64,000 nucleotides of DNA. Origin: Nitrospira sp. KM1 (GTDB lineage Bacteria > Nitrospirota > Nitrospiria > Nitrospirales > Nitrospiraceae). The position numbers were made by a program, and so were the translations under genes. Of the stretch, positions 2,247 to 46,050 are shown piece by piece (within the stretch, counting starts at the first letter, position 1; each line of letters starts with the position of its first letter). The notes under the pieces are model-generated. The model had not been told where the DNA came from. It ran no database searches and worked only from the letters and a program-made list of their open reading frames with translations. The stretch is taken from assembly GCF_011405515.1 (NCBI RefSeq), contig NZ_AP022671.1:1922001-1986000 (forward strand), written 5' to 3'.

Positions 2247-2317
2247 GTCATTGTCCTCCGCATCACCCGGGTTCCAGTTGCCAAGAGTCTCTTCCCGCGG
2301 ATCATGACCTCACCGGA

Positions 2318-2782
2318 TCAGGAGTGTTCATGCTCAGTCCAACCGGCCACTTTGAAGTTGATCGTGCAGACAAAATTCTCTCCATCATAAAAATTCACTT
2401 TGATCTTTTTCTTGCCGTACGTCTTTGCCAGAAATTCCTCCGGATTGTCGACCAGTTCCCGATAGGCTCCCGCTGGATAGGAGTTCAGATCATGGAACAC
2501 GACAATCATGCCGACTTTTACTTCCTGGAGCACCTTGACGGAACAACGAGGATACACTTCCCAGAATTTCGCCTCGATCATGTCTTTGGTAGGTTCGGGA
2601 CGATCCTCCCCGGCCTTTACCGGTTGGGCAAATTTCGCCAAACGCCGGACATATGGGTATTGATGGCCGGTAAACAATTTATAGAGCCACGGTGGAACCG
2701 ATGGCTTTTCAGAAGCACCCTGCATATGGATCGATTCCTCTCGGTCGGGCATATGTTTCTCATCGCTGTCGATCACTAACAT
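2318..2782 (-). CDS. conserved hypothetical protein
   Basis: A soluble protein of up to 154 residues with no signal peptide or membrane segment and no motif I recognise. It is rich in Lys, Asp and aromatic residues, has a single Cys in a YPRCSVKV stretch and another near the C terminus, and ends in a His/Glu tail. The start is uncertain. ATG 2782 gives the longest form, while ATG 2725 follows a GAGAGG sequence that could be a ribosome site. It lies between norD and mdh on the same strand and may be co-transcribed with norD (30 bp gap). Its composition resembles a real gene, but no function is assigned. Confidence 0.65.
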   Translation of the reverse strand: MLVIDSDEKHMPDREESIHMQGASEKPSVPPWLYKLFTGHQYPYVRRLAKFAQPVKAGEDRPEPTKDMIEAKFWEVYPRCSVKVLQEVKVGMIVVFHDLNSYPAGAYRELVDNPEEFLAKTYGKKKIKVNFYDGENFVCTINFKVAGWTEHEHS

Positions 2783-2812
2783 TCTGTGATCCGCTTTGAC
2801 CTTCGAACGGAC

Positions 2813-5800
2813 TCACGCGGTCAGCCGTTGGTAAATCAGAGGAAGCCTGGCGGGAAGGCTCTCGATGCGGTCAATGACAGTATAGCGGACTTCGCCGTAC
2901 ATCCGCCGCAGGTATTGATCGGCCTCCCGATCGATCGTCACGCAAAAGGTGTCGATCCCGCTCTGCCTCGCCTCACGCAAGGCGACCTTGGTATCTTCAA
3001 GGGAATATTCGTCTTTATATTCCCCGTCCAACGGCCGCCCGTCGCTTAACAATATGAGAAGGCGGGTTTTCGCCTCTCTGGATTTGAGTTTAACGATCGC
3101 GTGACGAATGGCCGCCCCATCCCGGTTTTGCTGCCTCGGGCCTAACCCACCGAGGCGCGCGGCGGTGAGGGGGCCGAGGTGCTCGCCAAAATCCTTGATG
3201 ACGTGAACATCGACCATCCGGCGGCCCTGCCCCGAATAGGCGAAGAGGGCATATTGGTCGCCGATCGCCTCCATGGCCTCGCATAGGACAATCAAGCTCT
3301 CTCTCTCGATATCAATGACCCGCCGTCCCTGATCGACCTGTCTTGCAGTCGACCCGCTGACATCGACTAAAAAAGCCACCGCGACCTGCCGATCGTGCTT
3401 CTCCCTGCGGATGTAAATCCGGTCATCGCCTTCAAGGCCGGCTCTCTGCTCGGCGGTCCTCCGCACGAGCGCGTCGAGATCAATGTCTTCTCCATCGGAT
3501 CGACCGGAAAGCCGGCGGGACGCGGGAACTCTGAGACTTTCGAAAACCCGGCGAAGCGATCGGATCATGCTCCGATGCGACGCCAAGGTCTCGGCCACGC
3601 CATCGTCCGAGCCGGCTTCGGCAGGTTTTTCGATGACCCGGCACCAATTCACCCGGTAGTCCCGGATCCCATGGTCCCATTCGGAATAGAGGATCGTCCG
3701 CTCTCCGGTTACCGCCTGTTCTTCCGATCCGTGCCGACTCTCGAGACTCAACAATTCCTCGATGGAGCTTGGTAGAGATCGGCCTCCTGTCATCAGATCT
3801 CCCGTCAACGAATGATCTGCGCTCGAACGGTCGGCCTGACCGCCCTCGTTCCGATTCGAAGCCCCTGCATCTCCTCTGCTTTGCGTCTCTGGTTGCGGCC
3901 GGGACTTATCCGTCCTTTCGACATGCCCGGTGACGAATTCGGGATTCAACTCACCACGATACTCCCAATTGGTCACCGGTCGATAGGGTTCTCCGCTCTC
4001 CTCGGATGCTGCCGGGCCTGCTCCCTGATCCTGAGATGACTCTTCCGTTCGATCCCCTGAAATCATCTCTGCTTTCGATGCCAACAACTCTTCCAGACGG
4101 ACGTATACTTTGTGGGCGACGCGAACTAACTCCTCGGCCGTGGTGTCCGGCTTGAAGACCGGATCGCACAGCCGCCAGATACTGGATACCTCCTGCTTCA
4201 CGGCGTAAGGCACCGACGATTCTTCCGACCGGCCGGATGAAAGCTTGAGCAGACAATCCACGATGAGCTCTTTTGCGGTCAACCCATGAGACGGATTCCT
4301 CGCAACAATCGCTTCGTCTGCCAATTGAGCGAGATCGCGACTCAATCCGGGATACTCGGTCCGGAGCCGATGTTCCACACGGGCGTCTTCGAGCACCGTC
4401 CAAATATCGCGGATAAGTTTCGGATGCGGATAGAAGGCGAACAGCGCGGCCAGCGAGACGGGAAATCGTCGATCCCTTATCAGGTACCGTTCCCACAACG
4501 CCTCAATGACATCCCGCAGCGCGTCGAGCCTGAGTCTATACGTCCCGAACTCCAGATGGCCCGCCTCATGGGCTGCCATGACCAAATAGAGCCGTTCATT
4601 TTTGTCGGCCGAGGAATACCGGCGCAGCAGCGCAGGAAGGGCGATGGTCCGGCCATCGGCGCTCACAGACGCCCGGGCGGCAGGAGCGGCAACCGAATCC
4701 GGCAACGGGACGATCGCGACATCGGTTCCGCACAGGCCTTGGACGAACAGTTTCACTTTGCGCGACACCTGGCGAAGTGAGACCCCGCTCAGCGCCTGTT
4801 CCACGGCAGACAACGCCCGGCCTGATTCGACCGCAAAATACGCACGCGCCCCTTCGGAACTATAGGCGAGTACCTCCATGCCGGTTTTGAACCATTCGCT
4901 GAATCGCGAGACAGCCTCCGCCCCCTGGCCGATCAATCCGAGCACCTCCGGACACCGACGCAGAAACGCGAGCGTCGCATCGGCATCCCGCTCGGCAAGA
5001 AGCGCCGCATGCTGCAACACGCGCATCTGCCACTCGCCTGACGGCAAATCCCGCAGCAATCTGGGTGATTCCGACAGCCATGTAATGCCTATCTCCGGTG
5101 AGCGATCCGCCAAACTGGTTCCCAATCGGACTACCTTCGACCGTGACGGGAGATGCTCCACGTCTTTCAAAATGGCCGGGCTCGTTCGTAGAAACTCCAT
5201 CGTCGCCATGTAGTCCGGTTTACCCAGCGTGTTCGGCGTAACCAGTTTCATTCCGAATGCCAGCCAGTCGCGCACATCATCGAGTTGCAGAACTGGAACA
5301 AGCTCGGGGATCTGACGGACGTATTCCAATCCGACGACCACATCGGCCTGAGTCAGCTCAACTGCCGCTTCCAGCCAGGGCCCCACGTGACTTGCAGGGA
5401 GCACTGCCGACAGGCGTGGAGCGGTACGAAGAAATTCAAGCGCCACATTCGCATCCTGCTCCGCGATCTCGAGACCGCGGGCCAACACCGCAGCCCGTTG
5501 ATTTTCAGGTTCGATCACACCGAGGATAATGGGACTGTCCTTCAGGTATTTGAGGGCGGTGGCGCCCGAGGAACCGGCCAGCGTGACGGCAACATCGAGC
5601 CAGGGAATAATCAATGACAGACATTTACGCGATTCTAAATCAGGTAGGGCTGACACCGCCGCTCGCGCCACCTTAGCGGAGATGTCTTCAAGTTCGTCGA
5701 GGAGAGCCAAGATGTCGCCGGACCGCAGACCTTCCTGGGTCAGAGCCGAGGCGATACGAAGGGACATTGTTGTTCCCAGCTCTGTTTCAAGGCGGCTGAC

Positions 5801-40519: not shown

Positions 40520-40870
40520 CTATTTAATCGTTCTGGTGATCTGATTGGAAGGAGTACTCTCGTTACCCGACGTGTCATAGGCCGTAACAACAAAATAGTA
40601 CGTTGCGCCAACCTGGAGATTTCCAACCGTATATCTTGTACTGGACGGCGAAATATTGCCGCTGACGATCGAGCCCTGTGAACCGGAAGACGTCGATTGA
40701 TACAACTTGTAGCCTGCCAGATCTCCGGCTGCCACAGGCTCCCATTCCACCGTCGCAGAGGAGGTTGCAACCGGCGGTGACTGGACGGGAGAATTCACTT
40801 CGCCCGTGCCGCTATCCCCGCCGCCACATCCGGCAAGGGCGGCAAAAACAATCAATAGCCACCGGTTCAT
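40520..40870 (-). CDS. lipoprotein with a fibronectin type III domain
   Basis: A 116-residue lipoprotein. From ATG 40870 the leader ends in a lipobox (AALAGCGGG). A short Ser/Gly/Pro linker leads to one FN3 domain (~38-114) with ATVEWEPVAAGDLAGYKLYQ, YTVGNLQVGATYYFVVTAYD and a final NQITRTIK strand. FN3 domains in exported bacterial proteins mediate binding to glycans or other proteins. Additional in-frame ATGs at 40885, 40903 and 40924 give longer leaders; none has a good ribosome site. It is divergent from the metalloprotease gene 310 bp away and might dock to the same surface. Confidence 0.75.
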   Translation of the reverse strand: MNRWLLIVFAALAGCGGGDSGTGEVNSPVQSPPVATSSATVEWEPVAAGDLAGYKLYQSTSSGSQGSIVSGNISPSSTRYTVGNLQVGATYYFVVTAYDTSGNESTPSNQITRTIK

Positions 40871-41180
40871 GGGAGCACAGGCCATACGAAAGGCATTGTA
40901 CATAATTCGACCAGATAAAAACATGGGGGCGCAAGAACTACGGGCTCATACGTCCATCAGCATAGTACATATGCAACCCTTTGATTGGTCAAGGTTGTTG
41001 ATGATACCACTGAAATCTTCCGCAAGGGAGCGACAATCGGCCCTAAACGAAAGATAAACCACCTCCTCGAATACGGACTTGAAATAGATCGGCCCGGTGA
41101 ACATACTGTGGATCGCCTTGACATTGTCGTAACAGAGCTTAAGCCGTTAAACACAGAGAATTTCTTATGGATTCAGAATA

Positions 41181-42560
41181 ATGGACGGATTCCAGCGCGC
41201 ATGTTCCACCTTTTTAGTCTGCCTAATAGGTCTGGCATTCTCATCGCATCCGACGAACGCCCTGGATCAGCAGAATCCTCTTAAGCTGTTTACCGTGAAT
41301 TCGAAGCCGGTGCCAGGCCCTTTGGCTCGTGCTATTACTCCTACTCAAGCTGACAATAGGCCCTGGATAAAGAATACCCATGCTATCACCGTGAACCCTG
41401 CTGTCATCGATCGAATTAATACTGGAAGCAATGATGAATCCATTGAACTAACAGTGGACCTTCCGGCGTCCGGGGAGGTGACCGCAATCGTGCACCCTCA
41501 TCGGAAGAAGACAAAGACGTTGCAGCGTATCCGCGGTTGGAACGGATCGCTGAGACAGCATGTGGACAGTGAAGTGGCTCTCGTCTCCCGGGATGGAATG
41601 ATGGCGGGAAGCATTCGGAAAGGGCGGATCGTCTATGAGATCAAACCGGGCGATAACGGCTCGCATCACTTGCTCGAAATCGACTCCGAGGAGTTGCCGC
41701 CTGACTACCACCCTATCCCGGTATCCAAAGAACAGCTTGACGCTGCGGAGCAAGCTGCCGGACGAGGTGGACAACCTGGCAGTACACAGACAGCCCGCGA
41801 TGATGGATCCGTGATCGACGTGCTGGTCGTCTACACCGAAACCGTCAAGAACGCGAATGGAGGACAGAGTGGGATCGAAGCCTCAATTGACTTGGCTGTT
41901 GCGCTCGCCAACCAAGCATTGGCCAATAGCTCGATCCATACGGAGTTTCGCCTCGTCCACACGGCTCAAGTCACCTACACTGAAGCGGCAAATTCAAACA
42001 CCGATCTGAACCGGCTTCAAAATCCCGGCGACAGCTTTATGGACGGCGTGCATGCATTGCGGAATCAGTACAATGCCGATCTGGTAGCGTTGATCGTCGA
42101 AAACCTGGGAGACGCCTGCGGCATTGGGTATGTGATGACCCCCGTCAGCCCCGACTTCGAAAAGTTCGCCTTTAGCGTGGTTCAGCATAGTTGTATTTCC
42201 AGCTACACGTTCGCCCATGAGGTCGGTCATAACATAGGATCAATGCATGACAGACAGGAAGGGGGAAGGGGCGCGTTCCCGTATTCGTTCGGTCACAAGG
42301 AGCCGGGAAAGTTCCGGACGATCATGGCCTATCCTTGCCCGCCTCCCAATCTCTGCACCCGCATCAATCACTATTCCAATCCCCATGTCCAATACCAAGG
42401 GTCTTGGGCGACGGGTGTGGATGACAATGTGGATCCCGCCCATTCGGCTGACAATGCGAGAGGGTTTAACAATGCTCTCGGCACCGTGGCACGCTTCCGA
42501 GACAGTGAAATTGATACCACCGCACCAGACGCGCCTGCAAACCTCCATTTCGTCGACTAG
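41181..42560 (+). CDS. secreted reprolysin-type zinc metalloprotease with propeptide
   Basis: A 459-residue exported protease. A signal peptide (~1-28) is followed by a propeptide-like domain (~60-175) ending in LEIDSEELPPD, a short Gln/Gly linker, and a metzincin catalytic domain (~210-440). The zinc motif is HEVGHNIGSMHD, with the downstream Met-turn in TIMAYPCPPP. Paired Cys (DACG, HSC, PCPPPNLC) may form disulfides. It ends with DTTAPDAPANLHFVD, the kind of linker that usually leads into an FN3 domain, but a TAG follows at once. Its propeptide domain is homologous to the two stand-alone ORFs that follow at 42646 and 44941. It is predicted to be extracellular. The start ATG 41181 has no strong ribosome site. 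Confidence 0.88.
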   Translation: MDGFQRACSTFLVCLIGLAFSSHPTNALDQQNPLKLFTVNSKPVPGPLARAITPTQADNRPWIKNTHAITVNPAVIDRINTGSNDESIELTVDLPASGEVTAIVHPHRKKTKTLQRIRGWNGSLRQHVDSEVALVSRDGMMAGSIRKGRIVYEIKPGDNGSHHLLEIDSEELPPDYHPIPVSKEQLDAAEQAAGRGGQPGSTQTARDDGSVIDVLVVYTETVKNANGGQSGIEASIDLAVALANQALANSSIHTEFRLVHTAQVTYTEAANSNTDLNRLQNPGDSFMDGVHALRNQYNADLVALIVENLGDACGIGYVMTPVSPDFEKFAFSVVQHSCISSYTFAHEVGHNIGSMHDRQEGGRGAFPYSFGHKEPGKFRTIMAYPCPPPNLCTRINHYSNPHVQYQGSWATGVDDNVDPAHSADNARGFNNALGTVARFRDSEIDTTAPDAPANLHFVD

Positions 42561-42645
42561 CCCCACTGTCCGGACGGGTCTGCAAACGGGCATCATACAC
42601 TCGGCACTGAACGTCTCATGGGTTGCTCGCTCGAACTCATTGACT

Positions 42646-43134
42646 ATGAAAGTTTTCGTGGTAGCCATCTTCGCGATTTCCGCACTAGGCCCCTCTGCCA
42701 ATGCGTGGAGCATGGGATCGTTCTTTGATGACACACGCTTGTGGGAGCCACTTTCGCCCCTGGCCCGACCTCAAGGGGACTCGGAACGGAAAGAGCCTTG
42801 GATCGTGCGGGAACAAGACATTGGATTTTCCAGTACTGTTCTGTCGGTCCTTCGGAATTCGAATGAGCCGCTCCCGGACAGACTCCTAATCAACCTTGGC
42901 GATGAACAGAACGTGAAGGTTCACTTCACGCATCGGACAAGCAGTCGAACAGGATCCACCGTCTTCCAGGGAACGATCGAGACGTCCCCCCCAGGAGACA
43001 TTCTATTGTCCGTACAGGGTGAGGCTGTCGCCGGAATCGTCAGAAAGGGAGATGCGACATGGCGGATCACGTATCGTGGAAGCGGGCGCCATCGATTGAT
43101 GCAGATCGACGTCGAAAAACTTCCACCTGACTGA
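42646..43134 (+). CDS. stand-alone secreted propeptide-like protein 1
   Basis: A 162-residue protein with a signal peptide (~1-22, AISALGPSANA) and one domain (~50-162) homologous to the propeptide region of the metalloprotease 86 bp upstream. It shares the PWI start, a G-x-V-x-G-x-I core (GEAVAGIVRKGD) and the final HRLMQIDVEKLPPD. It stops exactly at that PPD, where the protease would continue into its catalytic domain. No catalytic motif follows. Its length is identical to the second copy at 44941-45429. Start ATG 42646 lacks a clear ribosome site. It could act in trans as inhibitor or chaperone of the protease, or be a remnant of a duplicated protease gene. Confidence 0.7.
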   Translation: MKVFVVAIFAISALGPSANAWSMGSFFDDTRLWEPLSPLARPQGDSERKEPWIVREQDIGFSSTVLSVLRNSNEPLPDRLLINLGDEQNVKVHFTHRTSSRTGSTVFQGTIETSPPGDILLSVQGEAVAGIVRKGDATWRITYRGSGRHRLMQIDVEKLPPD

Positions 43135-43195
43135 ACCAACTTGGTTCCGGATCGGTGTTTGTGTCAGGTCAACGGTGGCGGGATACGAATATGCG

Positions 43196-43630
43196 TCAGA
43201 ATTGCAGGTAGTGATACGGACCAAACGTTCGGCGGCAACCGACCAGATAGTAGTGCCCGACCGCCGGGACTTCAACCGGCCTCACCCAACGAATGTCGAA
43301 GACCAGTAACGTTTTTCGGCCAAGGCTGTGTGAAGTATGAATCTCCAACATCTTGGTAGGAGCGGGCGATTTTTCCATCAGCAGCAACATCCCCTCCGTA
43401 CTCTGATCAAGCGTGACGGCATCGCCGACCTGGTCGGATACGGGACTCTCGCCCGGCGTCTCACTGGTTTCGTACGTGCAGGGCTGCCAATGTTCTACTC
43501 GCGGTTCGCGACGACGTTCCCCCGCGTCCCTCGGTGCAGCACTCACGCGTATCGAACCGCTCCTTAAGCCGGGCTGCCGTACGGCCTGTTCAATACGAGC
43601 TCGGTGTCGCTCGAAGAATTGTGTGATCAA
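43196..43630 (-). CDS. PilZ-like protein 1
   Basis: A 144-residue soluble protein related to the gene at 43805-44224. It has the PilZ-style basic motif RRREPRVEHWQPCTYE, a central LDQSTEGMLLLMEKSP that resembles the D/NxSxxG motif, and a C-terminal half IHTSHSLGRKTLLVFDIRWV ending in GPYHYLQF. PilZ domains bind c-di-GMP; the RxxxR and (D/N)xSxxG elements are present but diverged. The start is probably TTG 43630; no ATG or ribosome site is present in this frame after the upstream stop. Gene order places it between the two stand-alone propeptide-like genes, on the opposite strand. Confidence 0.6.
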   Translation of the reverse strand: MITQFFERHRARIEQAVRQPGLRSGSIRVSAAPRDAGERRREPRVEHWQPCTYETSETPGESPVSDQVGDAVTLDQSTEGMLLLMEKSPAPTKMLEIHTSHSLGRKTLLVFDIRWVRPVEVPAVGHYYLVGCRRTFGPYHYLQF

Positions 43631-43804
43631 GGCGTCCGCCCCATCGCTGGGGGCGCATTATGCCTTATCCCTTTTGTGTCCGCAACCTCGATGTGGAAGC
43701 CGCTGTAAGTCGATGCGCGATAATTCCATGCATTATGCGGGGTCTGAAATGAGATTGGCAGTGGGGGAAGACGGGATGTTGAGAGAATATCCGATTGGTG
43801 GACG

Positions 43805-44224
43805 TTAGAATTCCAGATATCGGCAGGGAGCGAGAATCCGGTGACATCCGACCATGAAATAATCACCCTTGGATTCAATGTGTATCGGCTGCGTCCAACT
43901 CACTTCGCATACCGATATCGCTTTGCGCCCAAGTGTTTCCGTCGTAAGAATTTCGAGATATTGCCGTGATTTTGGGGCTTGAGTCATCAGCAGCAACATC
44001 CCTCCTGAGCTTCGATTAATTGCATACGCCTCACCCATCTTGTGGGAAATCGCTGTATCGCCGGAAGCCTCGACCATCTCATAGGTGCAGCGTTCAAAGA
44101 AGAACTCTCTTCTTTCCTGCCGCCGCTCATCCCGACACCCTGCACCAGGCCACGACATGGGAATCTGACCAGCTATTTTGCTATCCGTAGAAAAATGTGG
44201 CATTCCGTCTCCGGAGATGGGCAT
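43805..44224 (-). CDS. PilZ-like protein 2
   Basis: A 139-residue soluble paralogue of the preceding protein. It has RQERREFFFERCTYEMVEAS (PilZ RxxxR-like), YAINRSSGGMLLLMTQAP (NxSxGG) and a matching C-terminal half EILTTETLGRKAISV...CEVSWTQPI ending in PCRYLEF. The start ATG 44224 has CAGGAG seven bases upstream. The two paralogues are in tandem with 174 bp between them, and the intervening stretch holds no convincing gene. Their proximity to secreted protease-related genes suggests a link between c-di-GMP and secretion or surface functions, which is inference. Confidence 0.7.
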   Translation of the reverse strand: MPISGDGMPHFSTDSKIAGQIPMSWPGAGCRDERRQERREFFFERCTYEMVEASGDTAISHKMGEAYAINRSSGGMLLLMTQAPKSRQYLEILTTETLGRKAISVCEVSWTQPIHIESKGDYFMVGCHRILAPCRYLEF

Positions 44225-44940
44225 TGGTCGACTCCTGAGTTGGAGGAAACACGCTGAATAGCCGGCTTGCTGGATTGACGTCTAGTCTAGACAGAGCAAG
44301 GGACGTACCTGCAAGGCTATAGAATCGACACTGTTTCTTGAGGCATTGCGGATCGCTTTAGAGGCGACCAGCCTATTCCGAATGCCTGATTGCAACAGAG
44401 AGAGGATGAAGTAGAGCGGTTCTTTGTCTACATAGTTGATATTACTGGCGTCAGAGTGAGTGTACTCACAAACCTACAATGAGAAGGAATTTTCCTTCAC
44501 CAGCATCGCCATTAATATAATTTCTAGTTCTTCTTATCGACAATAATGACTAAGACCCCGAATGAGCCTCCCCCTTGACACTGACAGGGAATCGTCGAAG
44601 TATACGCACTCATTTGTGAAATCAATAGGATCGTCTTTTAAAGTACCTTCTGCTTATGACCCGTCCGGAATTTCTTGCTGAATGGTCGGGTGCGTCGCCC
44701 GACGAATACCTGAGCAGTTTGCTCGAACTTGCCGCTCCGCTTCAAACTCTCATGACCACGCTTTCACCTGTTCATTTGGATGAAGTCACACGGTTGATCT
44801 TTCGTACCGCGGCCACCTACCGGAACGGAACCGCATCGTGTTTCCGATTGCAGTCAGGATAGTCAGTGCGCGGAAGGCGCATTGATGCCATTTGGAGATA
44901 GGCCTTTCAGTCTCATATCTACGCAGCAGTTGGTGATCGT
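44225..44940. other. AT-richer intergenic region with palindrome and a doubtful short ORF
   Basis: This 716-bp stretch is less GC-rich than its surroundings. It contains an inverted repeat GTGAGT-GT-ACTCAC (44456-44469). A 68-codon open frame at 44656-44862 (plus strand, beginning MTRPEFLAEW) has no ribosome site and no recognised domain; I leave it as possible but unsupported. No RNA gene was recognised. Confidence 0.5.
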
Positions 44941-45429
44941 ATGGATATCGGAACGCAACTGGGTCGCGTCTGGCTAGCAGCCGTGGCGTTCCTGATCGTC
45001 GATCCCATCCCTGTCTTTGCCGAGGCGGTGACTTCTCTGCAACTGTGGGGGGAGGCACCTGCACAAGAACAACCTCTTCCTCCGAAAAAGGCGTGGGTGA
45101 TTCGCGAACGGGAGATCGCTTTTGATCCTCAATCGTTGGCAATCATGAAGGACGCAACGGCAAGACCTCATCCATCGGTGCGAATCGAACTGTTTCAGCA
45201 TCAAGGGTATGAGTTAGATGTAACTTCGACTGTTTCCCGCATGAGCAATCTTTCAACTGTGCGAGGGACGCTGAAGAGCATCGACCGGTCGACATGGTCA
45301 CTTCTGATCAATGGCAACCTCGTGAGCGGCACTATCCAAATCGAGGGACGTCAATTTCGAGTCGAACACGTCCAAAACGGTCGCCACAGGCTCCTCGAAA
45401 TCGATCCGGCTAAAGTGCCTCCCGATTGA
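44941..45429 (+). CDS. stand-alone secreted propeptide-like protein 2
   Basis: A 162-residue protein with a signal peptide (~1-28) and one domain (~50-162) homologous to the metalloprotease propeptide and to the protein at 42646-43134. It shares AWVIREREIAF (compare PWIVREQDIGF), the G-x-L-V-S-G-x-I core and HRLLEIDPAKVPPD at the end. It stops exactly at PPD. The sequence is diverged enough (low overall identity) to show that it is an old, retained gene and not a recent duplicate. The nearest downstream gene is DUF488, 72 bp away. Start ATG 44941 has a weak GGTGA upstream. Confidence 0.7.
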   Translation: MDIGTQLGRVWLAAVAFLIVDPIPVFAEAVTSLQLWGEAPAQEQPLPPKKAWVIREREIAFDPQSLAIMKDATARPHPSVRIELFQHQGYELDVTSTVSRMSNLSTVRGTLKSIDRSTWSLLINGNLVSGTIQIEGRQFRVEHVQNGRHRLLEIDPAKVPPD

Positions 45430-45501: not shown

Positions 45502-46050
45502 ATGCCCGGCATCCTCTGGACCATCGGTCATTCGACCAGACCCGTCGATGAGTTCATCGACCTGCTACGGGCCCATGACGTGCTGCAAGTCATAGATGTC
45601 CGGACTATTCCGCGGTCCCGGCACAATCCTCAGTTCAATTCCAACTGCCTGGCAACAAGCTTGACGTTGGCCGGTCTCGTCTATGGACTGTCCCCGGAAC
45701 TCGGCGGATTACGAAAACCTTCCAAGAATTCGATCAATACCGGGTGGAGAAATGCGAGCTTTCGAGGGTATGCCGATTATATGCAAACGGATGCATTTTG
45801 GAATGCACTGGAAAATCTCATTCATCAGAGTGCCGCGCGAGCGACGGCCGTCATGTGTGCGGAAGCCGTGCCGTGGCGCTGTCACCGGTCATTGATCGCC
45901 GATGCCGTCTCATTACGCGGCTGGAAGGTCCGGCACATTCTCTCCAGCCGGAAGGTACGACAGCACGTCTTGACGGCATTCGCCGTAGTTGATCACGGCA
46001 AAGTGCGCTATCCTGCACCGGTCGAACAGAGTCCACCCGAACTGTTTTGA
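45502..46050 (+). CDS. DUF488 domain protein
   Basis: A 182-residue soluble protein of the DUF488 family. It has TIGHSTRPVDEFIDLLR at the N terminus, VIDVRTIPRSRHNPQFN, and a second conserved part with MCAEAVPWRCHRSLIADAV and Cys/His residues. Members often accompany DNA repair or restriction genes, but their activity is not established. It is complete, starting at ATG 45502 without a clear ribosome site. It probably does not belong functionally with the propeptide-like gene before it. Confidence 0.9.
   Translation: MPGILWTIGHSTRPVDEFIDLLRAHDVLQVIDVRTIPRSRHNPQFNSNCLATSLTLAGLVYGLSPELGGLRKPSKNSINTGWRNASFRGYADYMQTDAFWNALENLIHQSAARATAVMCAEAVPWRCHRSLIADAVSLRGWKVRHILSSRKVRQHVLTAFAVVDHGKVRYPAPVEQSPPELF

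Follow-up and report, generated by a model that had tools for sequence, protein, structure and literature searches.

Among the genes of a 64,000-nucleotide stretch of the Nitrospira sp. KM1 genome (contig NZ_AP022671.1, positions 1,922,001 to 1,986,000; hereafter the window), a secreted reprolysin-type metalloprotease, P0001, is followed on the same strand by two small genes, P0002 and P0003, whose products consist of a signal peptide and a domain homologous to the prodomain of the protease. We think it likely that these free-standing prodomains, or solos, act in trans as CpaB-like chaperone-inhibitors of a reprolysin-type secreted protease that still carries its own prodomain in cis: a propeptide encoded next to a protease probably aids folding and keeps the enzyme off in trans. 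The two solos of the window are not equivalent and belong to separate clades, named here solo A (P0003) and solo B (P0002). On the sequence data presented below, P0002 is the putative cognate partner of P0001 (pair B), and P0003 is best explained as the kept solo of a sister pair, pair A; no protease of that pair is present in this genus.

Free-standing prodomains with a common end

The initial annotation had described three open reading frames, the first a secreted reprolysin-type protease with a propeptide-like domain ending in EIDSEELPPD, the other two a signal peptide plus this domain only. Both the frames (459, 162 and 162 residues) and their assignments were confirmed, and P0001 has a signal peptide as well. 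With P0002 as query, P0003 is recovered at E 6e-12 and the prodomain of P0001 at E 4e-7. The HMM-HMM comparison that had been suggested, run with HHalign on the two groups of solos and the two groups of cis prodomains (A and B in each case), gave probabilities of 97.6-99.8% (97.6-99.6% for solo and prodomain), against 9% for a reversed control. Neither the P0001 prodomain nor either solo has a match in Pfam or NCBIfam, and when the PDB was searched by sequence with the solo family, it too gave none. The two solos are as strongly diverged as had been noted (26% identity), and their shared stopping point proved to be general, as 56 of 56 solos end at one alignment position, with Asp (52) or Glu (4), which is the position of the Asp in the PPDxHP motif of the cis prodomains. 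All 56 also have a hydrophobic N-terminus, followed in 34 of them by an AxA motif of the signal-peptidase type, although a membrane anchor and a cleaved peptide look alike in this region.

A different origin had been offered for these genes, as eroded remnants of tandem protease genes, which would fit the same domain being found in the same neighbourhood. This explanation is extremely improbable and we regard it as refuted, given the common end of all solos, the absence of degenerate catalytic sequence (none was found behind P0002 or P0003), the age of the solo clade, and the selection acting on it. In the phylogenetic tree, solos A and B group together with support 98/85, and the cis prodomains of A and B form the other clade, with weaker support (81/56); the pairing is therefore older than the split between A and B. 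The ratio of nonsynonymous to synonymous substitution rates (dN/dS, Nei-Gojobori, mature domain) was 0.12 for solo A beside a protease (166 pairs), 0.19 for solo A without one (40 pairs) and 0.28 for solo B (5 pairs), with 0.17 for the cis prodomain and 0.09 for the catalytic domain. All these values lie well below 1. Because the sequence pairs are not independent, the slightly higher value of solos that have lost their protease is no more than suggestive. Long retention, and not a recent broken duplication, was therefore the right expectation, with dN/dS of about 0.1-0.3, one end and a clade that predates the A/B split.

Predicted fold and known partner systems

The AlphaFold2 model of P0003, built from a 53-sequence alignment, has a mean predicted local distance difference test (pLDDT) of 86, and its best match among re-aligned PDB chains is CpaB (6o38_H, from the complex of this chaperone with its substrate CpaA), with Z 11.8 and a root-mean-square deviation of 2.9 over 108 of 118 residues. 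The next matches are the ADAM17 prodomain (Z 7.7, moderate) and profragilysin (Z 6.4), the first unrelated chain scoring 5.5. In a Foldseek search with the same model, the top six chains were all CpaB (E 3.6e-4 to 3e-3, probability 1.00). The P0001 zymogen model aligns with pro-ADAM17 across both domains at Z 14 and with the fragilysin zymogen at Z 12, and its prodomain matches CpaB with Z 10.6; the latter half of the catalytic domain is poorly predicted in this model (pLDDT <50), so the inter-domain geometry is to be read as suggestive. As far as the predicted structures go, the solos share the M12B-type prodomain fold with the ADAM and fragilysin prodomains. The ADAM17 and fragilysin prodomains have this fold in common with solo and cis prodomain alike, but they work in cis and are removed by cleavage from the enzyme to which they belong, and there is no Cys switch in the present case.

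The closest known system is CpaA-CpaB of Acinetobacter, a metzincin glycoprotease with a dedicated chaperone of the type II secretion system, whose gene lies 22 bp downstream of the protease in A. nosocomialis (PMC4713064); according to a second report, the C-terminal tail of CpaB blocks the catalytic site of CpaA (PMC7542363). The solo pairs resemble this system in that the partner gene adjoins the protease gene downstream and the predicted fold is the same, and the catalytic domain of CpaA is distantly related to that of P0001 (NCBIfam E 7e-12). A probable difference is that CpaB is anchored in the membrane and most solos have the look of a cleavable signal peptide followed by the domain. 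CpaA is not known to carry such a prodomain in cis; here the domain is present in both protease and solo. The arrangement, which the initial annotation did not recognise, thus has a counterpart in the trans-acting chaperone of CpaA, and its variant feature is that the protease retains the domain in cis. Fold and gene arrangement, with a solo gene adjoining 42-43 of 45 metzincin proteases, suggest by analogy that the solos most likely work like CpaB; to call them members of the CpaB family would exceed the evidence.

Other systems offer looser parallels. Mep72, the closest curated NCBIfam model to the P0001 catalytic domain (E 4e-40), forms a complex in Pseudomonas aeruginosa with a neighbouring partner, BamI, that counteracts its toxicity (PMC4334185); however, bamI lies upstream of the protease gene and BamI is described as partly disordered, not as a propeptide. 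Stand-alone propeptide-like proteins that inhibit in trans are also known from other clans, in the MEROPS families I9 (SUB1-ProM, yeast Pbi2) and I29 (CTLA-2, crammer), and SUB1-ProM shows synteny with genes for subtilisins (PMC6993865, PMC4089206). These too are free-standing propeptide copies, but they are eukaryotic and belong to another catalytic class and fold.

Two solo lineages and their proteases

P0001 carries the features of an M12B/reprolysin-like metzincin: Pfam Reprolysin_5/4/3 match residues 211-387 (E 4e-20), Reprolysin_5 with 73 bits against a cut-off of 27, the HExxHxxGxxHD motif is intact (HEVGHNIGSMHD) and a Met-turn, RTIMAY, is present. The NCBIfam relationships to Mep72 and CpaA concern the catalytic part only. 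P0001 is 51-52% identical to pair-B proteases and 35-41% to other proteases (alignment A3), and the His-Pro of the PPDxHP motif is invariant across the aligned proteases. We considered whether its odd C-terminus, TTAPDAPANLHFVD, reflects a local truncation, and rejected this because the same end is common to pair-B and some pair-A proteases. Many C-termini of pair-A and pair-B proteases (residues 445-459 in P0001) are TTAPPAPANFRIISP-like tails that resemble the first residues of an FN3 repeat, and one protease clade has a long Asp-rich tail in its place.

The tree places P0002 among the B solos (99/93), P0001 among the B prodomains (90/95) and P0003 with solo A of its own genus. P0002 is thus the candidate partner of P0001, and P0003, which tree and synteny place in another lineage, is ruled out as one. 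Some genomes hold three members, a solo A and a pair-B protease with its solo B; in G155, G156, G110 and G101 (L117-L120), solo B follows the pair-B protease after ~23 bp. At these four loci, a homologue of the FN3 lipoprotein of the window (48-55% identity) lies upstream of the protease and divergent from it (L117 2421-2651, L118 2208-2438, L119 5838-6068, L120 6622-6882); of five pair-B loci that were read, only L121 showed no such gene, and it stands beside none of the pair-A loci. Given these homologues and the pair-B affiliation of P0001 and P0002, positions 40520-43134 are interpreted as a three-gene cassette (FN3 lipoprotein, P0001, P0002). Other members of the genus are without this block.

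The searches covered the 40 nearest genomes, 175 genomes of the family and 84,980 species genomes (with an orphan-solo alignment), and lineages beyond Nitrospirota were covered by this single genome-contig scan, for close relatives of the solo, and by plasmids. Among the 40 nearest genomes, a single orthologue of P0003 (44-64% identity) occurs in every one of the 6 other genus members, and orthologues are also present in two further genera, usually next to the DUF488 gene and always ending at the same point; none of these genomes holds the protease, and no M12B-like catalytic domain was found in the 6 other genus genomes. Homologues of the orphan form are present elsewhere, since the scan of species genomes gave 49 loci, all Nitrospira-type, 29 of them with a related protease, bearing its own prodomain, directly upstream on the same strand. 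A pair-A locus typical of Nitrospira stands on a contig under the label Nitrosospira (L101) and is probably binning contamination.

Protease genes number 45 in the family genomes, and 42 have a same-strand solo 0.9-1.3 kb past the prodomain, that is, directly after the protease. The exceptions are G123, where a contig end cuts the locus and the solo lies at the start of another contig, which gives 43 of 45; G171, where the reading frame of a pair-A protease runs on into a methyltransferase domain and the solo is gone (L114 4711-6936, minus strand), a deletion-like structure or an assembly error; and G175, with a protease and no solo. For protease relatives on plasmids of Pseudoalteromonas, Photobacterium, Rhizobium and Xanthomonas, no adjoining solo was recognised from the annotation, and the solo query had no match among plasmids. 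On a Photobacterium plasmid, a GspH/FimT-like pseudopilin gene lies directly upstream of a related metalloprotease (L172 2216-2737, plus strand).

Loss of the protease is visible in the genomes themselves. L071 is collinear with L075, with 91% identity on both sides, and has lost all of the protease but its 3′ end, with the solo intact, while L070 and L074 are collinear with L064 minus the protease. On the solo-A tree, the paired/unpaired label changes about six times, at least four of them forced by well-supported branches. The pairing itself seems to have arisen more than once, because in G060, of another family, the solo groups with the prodomain of its own protease (on long branches), and in G338, of another class, the solo (L169 5233-5787, minus strand) is near-identical to the prodomain of the protease (2291-5215, minus strand) from which it lies 18 bp upstream. 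This near-identity is confined to the second half of the domain, the first half differing, which points to a recent duplication or gene conversion.

Between P0002 and P0003 lie two PilZ-like genes (43196-43630 and 43805-44224, both on the minus strand), the first with a score slightly below the Pfam cut-off; in most relatives both match one single gene, which is nearer to 43196-43630.

Table 1. Features around the protease and the two solos (positions in the window)
Feature	Position	Strand	Basis
FN3-domain lipoprotein gene	40520..40924	-	Pfam fn3 E 4e-11; divergent from P0001; putative third gene of pair-B cassette
P0001, secreted M12B/reprolysin-like metalloprotease zymogen, pair B, 459 aa	41181..42560	+	Open reading frame, Pfam, NCBIfam; nearest relatives are pair-B proteases
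P0001 cis prodomain, end EIDSEELPPD, then YHP of the invariant xHP linker	41355..41705	+	Alignment A3; AlphaFold2 pLDDT 80-90 over most of it
P0001 catalytic domain	41811..42503	+	Pfam Reprolysin matches; metzincin residues all invariant in 34 proteases
P0001 zinc motif HEVGHNIGSMHD	42216..42251	+	Sequence; H346 E347 H350 H356 D357 invariant in A3
P0002, solo prodomain B (signal peptide + prodomain), 162 aa	42646..43134	+	Clade solo B; 85 bp downstream of P0001
P0003, solo prodomain A (signal peptide + prodomain), 162 aa	44941..45429	+	Synteny, tree; AlphaFold2 pLDDT 86; best PDB match CpaB
DUF488 gene, kept downstream neighbour of solo A (context)	45502..46050	+	Synteny

A proposed mechanism and its alternatives

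In the mechanism we favour, adjacent genes would make protease and solo, and both would be exported. The solo would bind the catalytic domain in the manner of the cis prodomain and assist folding and/or export of the protease, its conserved acidic C-terminus lying in the active-site cleft and leaving the enzyme inactive until it is outside, with the protease's own cis prodomain as a second, cleavable lock. P0001 and P0002 would be such a pair, and P0003 a solo retained from the other. The type II secretion markers of the genome include GspG above its cut-off (177 bits) and secretin relatives below the GspD cut-off. The proposal of trans-acting propeptides made in the initial annotation is in large part supported by old, constrained single-domain genes beside 42-43 of 45 proteases, and fails for P0003 as a partner of P0001.

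Several observations weigh against this mechanism. The sequence identity between solos and CpaB is about 10-12%, and the Nitrospira solos lack the His-Pro that is invariant after the cis prodomain. With a prodomain still present in the protease itself, the need for another is not evident, and several divergent protease relatives (G120, G191, G152, G293, G313, G326) carry a cis prodomain but had no solo detected in their vicinity. Moreover, the solos survive in many protease-free genomes and may for this reason do something else: 44 of the 89 genomes with a match hold a solo but no such protease gene. A few of these 44 are fragmentary assemblies, and G120, G191, G152 and G153 have a more distant protease relative elsewhere.

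These solo-only genomes lend themselves to an alternative in which the solos began as propeptides and now have a function of their own apart from this protease, such as inhibiting other secreted metalloproteases or another role in the envelope, their adjacency being ancestral. The retention of solo A, syntenic and constrained across the sampled genus without the protease, speaks for it, but a solo accompanies 43 of 45 proteases, dN/dS is lower beside the protease (0.12 vs 0.19) and pairs of solo and protease arose more than once, and we hold such an independent function to be unlikely. The asymmetry of loss, in which the protease is almost never without a solo and the solo often without a protease, is also the pattern of a toxin and its antidote, and solos in protease-free genomes might guard against the protease of neighbouring Nitrospira in the way of orphan immunity genes. 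However, this presupposes that the protease attacks competitors, and such immunity seems to us still less probable than an independent function.

A more speculative extension of the favoured mechanism, which we hold to be unlikely, is a double lock. Here the same prodomain would serve one enzyme twice, as a lock in cis that is cleaved off and as a chaperone-inhibitor in trans that can be used again; the trans copy would survive loss of the enzyme and give immunity against proteases of neighbouring cells, and the whole would be an evolutionary intermediate between zymogens and chaperone-dependent metzincins such as CpaA.

These findings suggest that the CpaB-type secretion chaperones of bacterial metzincins are prodomains acting in trans, and they provide living cases in which a cis copy and a trans copy are found together, with more than one origin, and in which the trans copy is kept after the enzyme has gone. 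The move of a protease from self-inhibition to a separate inhibitor or chaperone becomes testable, and an unannotated secreted family, with at least 49 Nitrospira-type loci, gains a hypothesis for its function.

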